From the NCBI RefSeq assembly GCF_000687835.1, contig NZ_JHYB01000002.1, forward strand, positions 434,001 through 498,000: DNA of 64,000 nt. The letters run 5' to 3'. The translations under genes and the position numbers were made by a program. The notes under the pieces are model-generated. The model ran no database searches. It saw only the letters and a program-made list of their open reading frames with translations, and was not told the DNA's origin. Position 1 is the first letter of the stretch. Each line of letters opens with the position of its first letter. This document shows, one piece after another, positions 20,579 to 52,297 of the stretch. This DNA comes from Haploplasma modicum ATCC 29102 (GTDB lineage: Bacteria; Bacillota_I; Bacilli_A; Acholeplasmatales; Acholeplasmataceae).

Positions 20579-21316
20579 TTACTTAACAACACTTTCTATT
20601 TTGGGTTTTATTATTAAAAATAATGCTGGGGAGATAATTCCCTTAATCACATTAACTAAACCAAACATTATTATAATCGTTTTTACGATCGATAAAACAC
20701 TCTCACTACTATATTTAGGATCACTAAGTAAACTAAAAATTGTTAGATGAGAATATCCTGACATAAACATTGGCATGGTAATTATTGTATGAAATACAGT
20801 CATACCAATTGTCAAAATTATAGATGAAAGTAAACTACATGTAATAAATTCACTTATACTAGTTTTTTTAACGTTTGTTGGTAGTGCATAAATTAATGGT
20901 TTTTGTTTTTTCTTAAAAATTACTGTTGTAATATAGTAAGATAAAATAATTAGGTATGAGGCAAGTATCGCAATCACTTCACCTAAAAACTTCCAGATAT
21001 AATCTGCTTCCATTGCTGTCTTAGAAGGTAAGAAAAACCTTACTAGACTTCTAAGGATAATTACTAAACTAGCATTTTTATAGCCTAACATTAATATTGA
21101 TATTAATATTACGACCTCACTAAAATCTAATTTAACACCAATAATACCGATTGGTACTTCAAAGAAACCTACCACAATAGCTATAACACTCATGTTTACT
21201 ACATACATCATTTGCTTTGTAGTCATTGTTTCTTTTTTTAAATCACTAGTAGTATTATTAAATACTAATAGTTGTCCGAGTAATGCGATTATTGCAATTA
21301 TTAAAAAATATTGCAT
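20579..21316 (-). CDS. ribU: Probable riboflavin ECF transporter S component
   Basis: Integral membrane protein of 245 residues with about six hydrophobic helices and a GVKLDFSEVVIL segment after helix 2, resembling the substrate-specific (S) components of energy-coupling factor transporters. AAGGAGGG is 7 bases before the ATG. Assignment to riboflavin rests on the FMN riboswitch and terminator directly upstream; the sequence itself is more divergent and longer than the typical 190-200-residue RibU. The shared ECF module genes are not in this window. It is the only gene in its transcription unit. Confidence 0.82.
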   Translation of the reverse strand: MQYFLIIAIIALLGQLLVFNNTTSDLKKETMTTKQMMYVVNMSVIAIVVGFFEVPIGIIGVKLDFSEVVILISILMLGYKNASLVIILRSLVRFFLPSKTAMEADYIWKFLGEVIAILASYLIILSYYITTVIFKKKQKPLIYALPTNVKKTSISEFITCSLLSSIILTIGMTVFHTIITMPMFMSGYSHLTIFSLLSDPKYSSESVLSIVKTIIIMFGLVNVIKGIISPALFLIIKPKIESVVK

Positions 21317-21361: not shown

Positions 21362-21383
21362 AAAAAAAGAATTGATATAATTC

Positions 21384-21497
21384 TCTCTTCTTCCATCCAG
21401 ACTATAACTGTCGGTTCTAGAATTTAACTAGATCAACCTAAAAAGGCTCGCGGACTATACCGCCGGTGGAGACTTACACTCCGCCCTGAAGATTCAT
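21384..21497 (-). promoter_or_regulatory. FMN riboswitch (RFN element)
   Basis: On the minus strand the conserved RFN blocks appear in order: AATCTTCAGGGC, a GGAGTG...CTCC hairpin, CCACCGGCGGTATAGTCC, GCGAGCC, AACCGACAGT, and TCTGGATGGAAGAAGA closing P1. The spacing and conserved core residues agree with established FMN aptamers, which turn off riboflavin synthesis or transport genes when FMN is plentiful. Confidence 0.97.
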
Positions 21498-37831: not shown

Positions 37832-37842
37832 ATCTTGTGTGT

Positions 37843-37958
37843 GATCCGAATCTAAAAATGAGTGGGGGAACCAGTTTTTGGGGTGAATTTTACTTTGTAA
37901 AAGGAGAGTCTTGGAATCTCTAATCCGTCAGCTAACCTCATAGGAATAAATCCAGGCG
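37843..37958 (+). promoter_or_regulatory. c-di-AMP riboswitch (ydaO/yuaA type)
   Basis: The conserved blocks of this class are in order: GATCCGAATCT, GTGGGGGAACCAG, TTTTGGGGTGAATT, a GGAGAGTCTTGGAATCTC hairpin, and ATCCGTCAGCTAACCTCATAGG. Riboswitches of this class sense c-di-AMP and usually switch off potassium and osmolyte transport or cell-wall genes. The controlled gene here is a cation/proton antiporter of the CPA2 family, which fits c-di-AMP control of potassium. Confidence 0.95.
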
Positions 37959-37987
37959 TACAGCATTTTTGTTGGCGTTTTTTTTAT
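37956..37987 (+). terminator. Riboswitch-associated terminator before the antiporter
   Basis: A hairpin formed by GGCGTACAGCATTTTTGTTGGCG with an imperfect stem is followed by T8. It lies between the aptamer and the AGGAGG ribosome site, so it is the likely expression platform. Confidence 0.65.
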
Positions 37988-38006: not shown

Positions 38007-39260
38007 GTGAACATCATTATTGTTTTATCTATTTTTATTGGGCTTGGTTTTATCTTTGGTAAAATTGCAAGCAAACTTAAATTACCAACAGTTTCTGGTT
38101 ATTTAATTGCAGGTTTATTAATTGGTATTTTTAAAAAATTTATTAATTTTGAACCACATCTACCTGTACTAAACACTATAAGTGAAATTACTTTAGCATT
38201 TATTGCCTTTGGTATTGGTAGTGAGTTTATTATCGGTAATCTTAAGAAAAGTGGTAAAACCATTTTAATTATTACAGTCTTAGAAGTACTTGGTGCAATC
38301 GGTTTAGTATTCTTATCAATGTACTTATTCGTGCCAGTTGCATTTCCTAACTTTAGTCCACAAGAGAGATTAACATTTAGTATTATTTTAGGGACAATGA
38401 GTGCTGCAACAGCTCCTGCTGCTACAATTTTAGTTATTAAGCAGTTTAGAACAAAAGGTCCAGTTACCAATACAATTTTACCTGTTGCTGCATTAGATGA
38501 CGTTTTAGGGATTATTGCTTTTGGGATTGCTTTGCCAATTGCAAGAATTCTAACTCCATTAGATCCAAGTAATACTATTGATTTTACATTTTGGAACATT
38601 GTAAAAGGTCCTATAATTGAAGTATTTGGTTCACTTGCGCTTGGTTTAGTTTTAGGGGTTTTATTATCTTTTGTAACAAAGGCATTAGATCCACAAGACG
38701 AAATTCAAGTTAAAACTATTTTCTTTGTTTTAATTGGTCTTGGTTTATCACAGTTATTACATTTATCACCACTGTTAGTTAATATTATGTTAGGAGCAAC
38801 TCTCGCTAACCTTAGAGCACATTCAGGACGTTCATTTAGAGTAATTAGTAACTTTGTTCCCGTATTTTATATTATCTTCTTCTCAACTGCAGGAGCTACC
38901 CTTGATTTAGGTATTTTAGTAACTGTTGGCGTAATTGGATTTATTTATGTTATTGCTAGAGCGGCTGGTAAAATTGGTGGTGCTTATGCTGGTGCTACAA
39001 TTAGTAAGGCTGATCCAAAGGTTAAGAAGTATTTGGGGTTTGCTTTATTACCACAAGGTGGTATATCGATTGGACTTAGTTTATTAGTTACTAAGTACTT
39101 ACCAAATGTTGTTGCTGGTCCTATTGTTACAATCATTTTATTTAGTATCTTAATCTATGAATCATTTGGTCCGATCTTTGCTAAGATATCGTTATCTAAG
39201 GCTGATGAATTATTCAAACTAGATTTAGTTGAAGAAGAATTAGAACCTAATTCCTTATAA
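38007..39260 (+). CDS. CPA2-family cation/proton antiporter
   Basis: 417-residue membrane protein with about 12 helices. It shows the family segments FGKIASKLKLPTVSGYLIAGLLIGI, ALDDVLGIIAFGIAL with a conserved Asp pair near residue 163, and FALLPQGGISIGLSLL. The C-terminal TrkA-N/TrkA-C regulatory domains of KefB-like members are missing. Starts with GTG, AGGAGG 7 bases upstream. Controlled by a c-di-AMP riboswitch, so potassium or sodium export in osmotic balance is the probable role. Confidence 0.9.
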   Translation: MNIIIVLSIFIGLGFIFGKIASKLKLPTVSGYLIAGLLIGIFKKFINFEPHLPVLNTISEITLAFIAFGIGSEFIIGNLKKSGKTILIITVLEVLGAIGLVFLSMYLFVPVAFPNFSPQERLTFSIILGTMSAATAPAATILVIKQFRTKGPVTNTILPVAALDDVLGIIAFGIALPIARILTPLDPSNTIDFTFWNIVKGPIIEVFGSLALGLVLGVLLSFVTKALDPQDEIQVKTIFFVLIGLGLSQLLHLSPLLVNIMLGATLANLRAHSGRSFRVISNFVPVFYIIFFSTAGATLDLGILVTVGVIGFIYVIARAAGKIGGAYAGATISKADPKVKKYLGFALLPQGGISIGLSLLVTKYLPNVVAGPIVTIILFSILIYESFGPIFAKISLSKADELFKLDLVEEELEPNSL

Positions 39261-52028: not shown

Positions 52029-52057
52029 TTGTCTAGTTATTTTTTTTATGTTATAAT
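52029..52057 (+). promoter_or_regulatory. Promoter of the tyrosine-leader/ABC transporter operon
   Basis: TTGTCT-17-TATAAT, with transcription predicted to begin near 52064, about 24 bases before the leader-peptide ATG. A strong promoter well upstream of the first transporter gene (about 230 bases of leader). Confidence 0.82.
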
Positions 52058-52087
52058 ACCCCTAACCAAAAGATTGAGGTGTAACTT

Positions 52088-52156
52088 ATGTTTAATAAAA
52101 ATTTACAAACACAAGTTTATTATTATTACTATTACCAGGGAGATATTATGATTTAA
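52088..52156 (+). CDS. Leader peptide with six consecutive tyrosine codons
   Basis: A 22-residue ORF begins with ATG, preceded by GAGGTG, and ends in TAA. Residues 11-16 are all Tyr (TAT TAT TAT TAC TAT TAC, 52118-52135); the start is MFNKNLQTQV and the end QGDIMI. Its stop codon overlaps the first strand of a hairpin that competes with the downstream antiterminator. Too short to be a normal protein; the homopolymeric Tyr run and following alternative RNA helices make it a ribosome-stalling leader sensing charged tRNA-Tyr, by analogy with trp, phe and his leaders. Mechanism is inferred from sequence only. Confidence 0.85.
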   Translation: MFNKNLQTQVYYYYYYQGDIMI

Positions 52157-52215
52157 CACTGGTTTTTTAGTATTACCGTGTTGTTATAATATCTGTTTGA
52201 TATAGTAATAACACA
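52155..52215 (+). promoter_or_regulatory. Competing RNA helices of the tyrosine attenuator
   Basis: Three helices exclude one another. Helix X pairs AACAC+GGT (52155-52163, one bulged T) with ACCGTGTT (52175-52182). Helix II pairs GTGTTGTTAT (52178-52187) with GTAATAACAC (52205-52214), extended by ATATC/GATAT. The antiterminator pairs AATAACACA (52207-52215) with TGTGTTATT (52243-52251). Ribosome at the stop codon blocks X, allowing II and thus termination; ribosome stalled on Tyr codons permits X, freeing 52207-52215 to form the antiterminator. Confidence 0.7.
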
Positions 52216-52240
52216 CCAAATAAATTAATTTAAATTAATG

Positions 52241-52278
52241 AATGTGTTATTCCTATGAATAATACATTTTTTTATTTT
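52241..52278 (+). terminator. Attenuator terminator before the trpX-like gene
   Basis: AATGTGTTATTC-CTAT-GAATAATACATT, a 12-bp stem with one G-U, followed by T7ATTTT. It ends 20 bases before the transporter gene and its 5' arm is the strand also claimed by the antiterminator. Confidence 0.88.
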
Positions 52279-52297
52279 AAAAGAAAAGAGGACAAAT

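Follow-up and report, generated by a model that had tools for sequence, protein, structure and literature searches.

A predicted tyrosine-responsive leader-peptide attenuator upstream of an ABC importer operon in Haploplasma modicum

Results

A leader ORF with six Tyr codons precedes an ABC transporter operon

In the window (the whole 64,000-nucleotide stretch of Haploplasma modicum ATCC 29102 DNA analysed here), an operon on the plus strand encodes a TrpX-type substrate-binding lipoprotein (ABC_sub_bind, PF04392; 52298–53287), an ABC permease (PF02653; 53290–54237) and an ABC ATP-binding protein (PF00005; 54218–54991, with the real start probably at ATG 54230). Upstream of these genes and on the same strand, a consensus scan placed a predicted sigma-70-type promoter at 52029–52057 (10 of 12 matches), with the −35 element TTGTCT (52029–52034) separated by a 17-nt spacer from the −10 element TATAAT (52052–52057), which is preceded by TG. 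This match is weak alone: six promoter-type matches were found in the A+T-rich stretch and 5.4 were expected from shuffles, and the promoter match by itself is no better than chance.

Just 3′ of the promoter lies a short ORF with its own start and ribosome-binding site. The Shine-Dalgarno sequence GAGG (52076–52079) is located 8 nt 5′ of the ATG (52088) of a 22-codon leader ORF (MFNKNLQTQVYYYYYYQGDIMI; 52088–52156), which ends at a TAA stop codon (52154–52156) and contains six Tyr codons, a mixture of TAT and TAC, at 52118–52135; this is the sole run of at least four Tyr codons in the window. A pause-like hairpin, P1 (52135–52162), pairs CCAG (52135–52138) with CTGG (52159–52162) and is followed by TTTTTT. 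Segment 1 (AGATATTA, 52141–52148), which adjoins the leader stop codon on its 5′ side, was assigned by covariation as the partner of segment 2 (52178–52194), in which GTGTTGTTAT (52178–52187) pairs with segment 3 and TAATATCT (52187–52194) pairs with segment 1. Segment 3 (52205–52215) has two possible partners, segment 2 (OFF) or segment 4 (52243–52251; antiterminator, ON), and segment 4 is both the 3′ arm of the antiterminator and the 5′ arm of the terminator. In the window sequence, helix II joins 52178–52187 to 52205–52214 and the antiterminator joins 52207–52215 to 52243–52251. An intrinsic terminator (52241–52275), whose A+T-rich stem pairs 52241–52252 with 52257–52268 and is followed by a T run, is positioned before the first structural gene.

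An initial annotation, made from the letters of the sequence, had described a promoter, a leader ORF, Tyr codons, alternative helices and a terminator at this locus, and we recovered every one of them in the same place in the window sequence. It had missed the conserved pause-like hairpin (52135–52138 with 52159–52162) and its T run, as well as the ability of the Tyr codons themselves to pair with segment 3. The RNA from 52062 to 52280 folds with a z-score of −5.66 relative to shuffles. The consensus terminator scan did not report the leader terminator because its stem is too G+C-poor; comparative evidence, rather than the promoter and terminator scans, supports the predicted terminator.

Tyr-rich leaders are conserved upstream of homologous operons

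To look for the same leader elsewhere, as the initial annotation had proposed, we gathered orthologous operons by protein search and then read their upstream regions. Thirty genomes of the class have a Tyr-rich leader upstream of this operon, mostly with four to seven Tyr codons and an occasional Phe; examples are MIKFSLTSKVYYYYYNPGRY, from the same genus, MLVNFQNKFYYYYYFPRIS, MIKSINNVNQYYYYYYFPRRCHV and MKIRSFAQSYYYYYYPRKIV. A Shine-Dalgarno sequence is retained upstream of most of these leaders. In one genome (G091), where the operon order is permease, ATPase and substrate-binding protein, the leader sits before the permease gene, and in another (G256) each of two adjacent binding-protein genes has a Tyr leader of its own. 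Tyr-rich leaders were also found at five loci in Clostridia (e.g., MRTFAFYGYYYYDNLSK), a claim limited to the leaders themselves, as the automatic search for terminators and antiterminators gave mixed and partly mis-assigned hairpins there.

Among 21 non-redundant leaders, 100 of the 126 codons in the runs encode Tyr and 21 encode Phe. The Tyr codons are a mixture of TAT and TAC, and it is therefore the amino acid that is conserved. In 19 of the 21 leaders, 6–24 nt separate the last Tyr codon from the stop codon. In the two exceptions (L092 and L113) it has been lost or displaced, lying 36 and 39 nt past the Tyr run; a terminating ribosome would not cover segment 1 in these leaders, and a simple stop-codon model does not explain them.

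Covariation supports a five-segment switch

The leaders share a conserved order of elements: the Tyr codons, CCAAG, segment 1 (which contains or touches the stop codon), CTTGG with a T run to complete P1, segments 2, 3 and 4, and finally segment 5 with a T tail. P1 is kept in relatives as CCAAG/CTTGG-CTTTTT. To examine whether the segments of each leader match one another better than they match those of other leaders, we used 2000 permutations of the 21 non-redundant leaders. The observed fit of 1:2, of both halves of 2:3, of 4:5 and of P1 was reached in 0 of 2000 permutations and that of the antiterminator 3:4 in 17 of 2000, the weaker support for 3:4 being due to the near invariance of this helix; three control (wrong) pairings were not significant in the same test. 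We preferred this alignment-free test because MAFFT misaligns segments 1 and 2 in a few sequences (e.g., L114). In pair counts from a MAFFT alignment of 18 leaders, compared with 500 shuffles, the OFF state (2:3 plus 4:5) had 95.7% of cells paired and seven pairs changed on both sides, with 0 of 500 shuffles reaching it on all measures; the ON state (1:2 plus 3:4) was 82.7% paired, with 0 of 500 shuffles reaching its covariation score, and P1 was paired in 97.8%. The covariation thus supports a predicted five-segment cascade in which 1:2 and 3:4 (antiterminator, ON) alternate with 2:3 and 4:5 (terminator, OFF).

The tyrosine attenuator suggested by the initial annotation is supported by these results, since the Tyr codons are kept in relatives and the helices covary when tested as it had proposed. 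One of its helices needs revision: helix X (52155–52163 with 52175–52182) exists, but in this genome it is a local inner extension of helix 1:2, and the conserved helix is instead 1:2 itself (52141–52148 with 52187–52194).

Ribosome position switches the predicted fold

We folded only the RNA that lies 3′ of the ribosome footprint and stopped before the synthesis of segment 5. With the ribosome stalled in the middle of the Tyr run, the window leader gave 10.0 expected antiterminator pairs, as opposed to 0.5 with the ribosome at the stop codon. Over the 21 leaders, the mean number of antiterminator pairs was 10.1 in the stalled state versus 3.3 at the stop, and 2:3 pairs rose from 3.0 to 14.6. 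The predicted direction of switching was seen in 18 of 21 leaders and the reverse in none; 17–18 of the 21 still switched when the footprint edge was varied from 9 to 15 nt. The stop state removes segment 1 by design, making these counts a consistency check and not independent proof. No clear switch was found in three leaders (L002, from a same-genus relative, L126 and L139). With no ribosome, the window leader gave 2.5 antiterminator pairs, a low value explained by competition of the Tyr codons for segment 3.

The transporter and its genome point to tyrosine import

Among solved structures, the best match to the binding protein is CD0873 of C. difficile (6HNI), which has been shown to bind tyrosine; the Trp-bound structure 3LFT ranks behind it. 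The protein scored 235.5 bits against the TrpX equivalog model (NF041285; cut-off, 390 bits) and we regard it as a relative without calling it TrpX. Every homologue examined matches CD0873 in having Tyr at the second selectivity position, where the Trp-binder has Gln. At the first position, 33 of the 35 Tyr-leader proteins share the Glu of CD0873, but the binding proteins of the window and of L002 have Thr in place of this Glu, which in CD0873 binds the tyrosine hydroxyl. The residues equivalent to Glu-263 and Tyr-279 do not discriminate between operons controlled by Tyr and those controlled by Phe; they speak against Trp as the predicted substrate without speaking against Phe. Genes for chorismate synthase and prephenate dehydrogenase (PDH_N) were absent from the genome (99.75% complete), and therefore it probably must import tyrosine.

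The same genome has 11 T-boxes, none of them at the leader. They precede, among others, asnS, metG, pheS, serS, alaS and a putative Arg transporter, the genes being named from translated sequence. Homologous transporter operons carry T-boxes with an apparent UAC (Tyr) specifier in some Clostridia (L031, L051 and L067) and with an apparent UUC (Phe) specifier in another family of Bacilli (L148, L154, L168 and L174); we read the specifiers by eye with the GAA-XXX rule, which agrees with the T-boxes on the tRNA synthetase genes of this genome. The presence of apparent Tyr and Phe T-boxes before homologous operons indicates an exchange of regulators within one transporter family.

The scaffold occurs upstream of other genes

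In a family-wide survey, a covariance model of the leader nearly always found one strong copy per genome, and a large regulon is therefore not supported. In two relatives the scaffold, with Tyr/Phe leader peptides MNIINNIINNMFYYYYFNPRKSRV and MSVTMNMFYFYDYFNPRKGRV, precedes aroB-aroC (L195, G222:C3; L200, G367:C107), linking it to aromatic biosynthesis where a shikimate pathway exists. One genome has a Cys-rich version, MININKSFNFYCAYCICFPRKLVS (L202, G291:C7, 1469–1720), followed on its 3′ side by a small membrane-like ORF and then by cysK, which makes a retuning to cysteine possible on the basis of this single genome. We tentatively propose, as an idea that may yet fall short, that Acholeplasma-like Bacilli have a re-tunable attenuator scaffold, to which the H. 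modicum leader would belong and in which a fixed chassis (the CCAAG/CTTGG pause hairpin and the five-segment switch) accepts interchangeable regulatory codons, Tyr for the importer and aroB-aroC and Cys-rich (FYCAYCICF) near cysK. Separately, Phe-rich leaders (L083, L167 and L171; FKFSFRPFSFSF, NKSFFFFFR and SFFFNFR, respectively) precede homologous transporter operons and are possible Phe attenuators.

Discussion

The leader very probably works as a transcription attenuator mediated by the ribosome, one that senses charged tRNA-Tyr and regulates an ABC importer of the aromatic amino acid type, for tyrosine. We base this reading on sequence, conservation, covariation and folding behaviour, and from these we infer that the leader is translated, that ribosomes stall on it, that RNA polymerase pauses and that the operon responds to tyrosine. 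RNA polymerase would probably pause past hairpin P1 while a ribosome begins the leader. If Tyr-tRNA were scarce, the ribosome would stall on the six Tyr codons, leaving segment 1 free to pair with segment 2 and segment 3 free to pair with segment 4 as the antiterminator, and the operon would be transcribed. If Tyr-tRNA were plentiful, the ribosome would run on to the stop codon and cover the adjacent segment 1, upon which segment 2 would pair with segment 3 and then segment 4 with segment 5 to form the terminator. Without a ribosome, segments 2 and 3 would be taken up by the Tyr codons together with segment 1, and the predicted default here is mostly OFF.

A related reading, which we consider unlikely, is that the leader senses aromatic amino acids generally, Tyr and Phe together, and not tyrosine specifically. 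Phe codons occur inside the run of several relatives (21 of 126), Phe-rich leaders and Phe (UUC) T-boxes precede homologous operons, and the window's binding protein has Thr for the hydroxyl-binding Glu. However, the run in the window is exclusively Tyr (six of six), Tyr accounts for 100 of 126 codons across leaders, and the genome has a separate Phe T-box on pheS.

It is quite improbable that the leader encodes a nascent arrest peptide of the Tyr/Phe-Pro-Arg type that senses free tyrosine or a drug, and not the supply of tRNA-Tyr. Although YYYYFPR at the end of the run is common to many relatives, the residues that follow the run vary (PR, QG or PG, depending on the leader), the upstream peptide is not conserved and Phe substitutes freely, while the CCAAG/CTTGG RNA helix is retained across different reading frames; the RNA and not the peptide is therefore what is conserved.

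A constitutive terminator next to an unrelated small ORF, with no regulation, is more improbable still. Hairpins and TAT runs are cheap in A+T-rich sequence, but first-order Markov simulation gave, per window, 1.21 runs of at least four Tyr codons, 0.07 of at least five and 0.0 of at least six, so that chance does not account for the six-Tyr run. The combination of a Shine-Dalgarno sequence, a short ORF and a run of at least five Tyr codons did not arise in any simulated window, and the leader is conserved and covaries over some 30 genomes. That the element is a T-box or riboswitch is hardly conceivable: other clades have the same transporter family under T-boxes, including S. suis trpXYZ (PMC9382623), but neither a stem I with a specifier nor the T-box sequence UGGNACCGCG (RF00230) was found at the leader, Rfam searches at gathering and permissive thresholds (to E = 5) returned only chance microRNA and sRNA matches there and no family, and the 11 T-boxes of this genome all lie elsewhere.

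By every feature testable here, the predicted tyrosine attenuator belongs to the leader-peptide attenuators: it combines the ORF and terminator described above with a conserved codon run that matches the amino acid of the operon, the substrate link coming from the binding-protein comparison, and with a mutually exclusive antiterminator set, in the computed folds, by ribosome position. The trp, his and pheA attenuators of E. coli have a translated short ORF that carries consecutive regulatory codons, a pause-type hairpin, a mutually exclusive antiterminator and terminator, and a stop codon placed to free the terminator. The H. modicum leader would resemble them in all of these respects and differs in its Tyr codons, its transporter target and its five segments. 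Stalling would act here through an anti-anti-terminator, 1:2 pairing freeing segment 3, whereas in the E. coli systems it exposes the antiterminator directly.

In Firmicutes, leader peptides have been reported for His (Naville and Gautheret 2010, PMC2965389; PMC9413887, including Erysipelotrichales) and for Leu (S. aureus ilv-leu, PMC5794164). These follow the same principle in low-G+C Gram-positives, in place of T-boxes, but concern other amino acids and target genes, and it is on these grounds, rather than by comparison of scaffold sequences, that we set them apart. The initial annotation had regarded leader-peptide attenuation as established in Proteobacteria and knew of no well-described version that senses tyrosine in a Mollicute-like bacterium; with the Firmicutes examples already reported, its claim of rarity has to be limited to tyrosine and the five-segment scaffold. 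The uORFC-13-1 motif before Acholeplasma aroF, which has a Phe codon ('at least one phenylalanine'; PMC8632094), comes from the same bacterial group and shares a uORF, a promoter, a terminator and an aromatic amino acid gene. Its target, aroF, is biosynthetic, and neither a six-Tyr run nor a transporter is described for it (PMC8632094); with an ABC transporter as target and Tyr codons, the H. modicum leader does not fit this motif, as judged by motif description and not by alignment. The aroR leader of C. glutamicum, as outlined in PMC11802643 (citing Neshat 2014), has Phe-Tyr-Phe before an aromatic pathway gene; this actinobacterial leader has a single Tyr codon and is described there as responding to Phe limitation. 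Finally, S. suis trpXYZ is under a Trp T-box (PMC9382623). That operon and the operons with Tyr or Phe T-boxes share with the H. modicum operon a homologous transporter family, a tRNA charging signal and transcription attenuation, but T-boxes bind tRNA directly and have no leader peptide.

In the open-access literature we found neither a leader with a Tyr run before a transporter nor the five-segment scaffold. With the predicted attenuator, tyrosine would join the amino acids that have a dedicated leader peptide, here in relatives of the Mollicutes that use T-boxes otherwise, through a conserved five-segment architecture whose logic is distinct from that of trp and his. Two unrelated RNA devices would couple the same importer to Tyr-tRNA, the leader peptide here and the UAC T-box in some Clostridia. 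The leaders also provide a substrate prediction, tyrosine, for a widespread transporter family that is usually annotated as Trp.

Two riboswitches lie elsewhere in the window: an FMN riboswitch (21381–21497, minus strand) before a membrane protein gene (20579–21316, minus strand) that probably encodes a riboflavin transporter, and a c-di-AMP riboswitch (37834–37960, plus strand) before a cation/proton antiporter-like gene (38007–39260).
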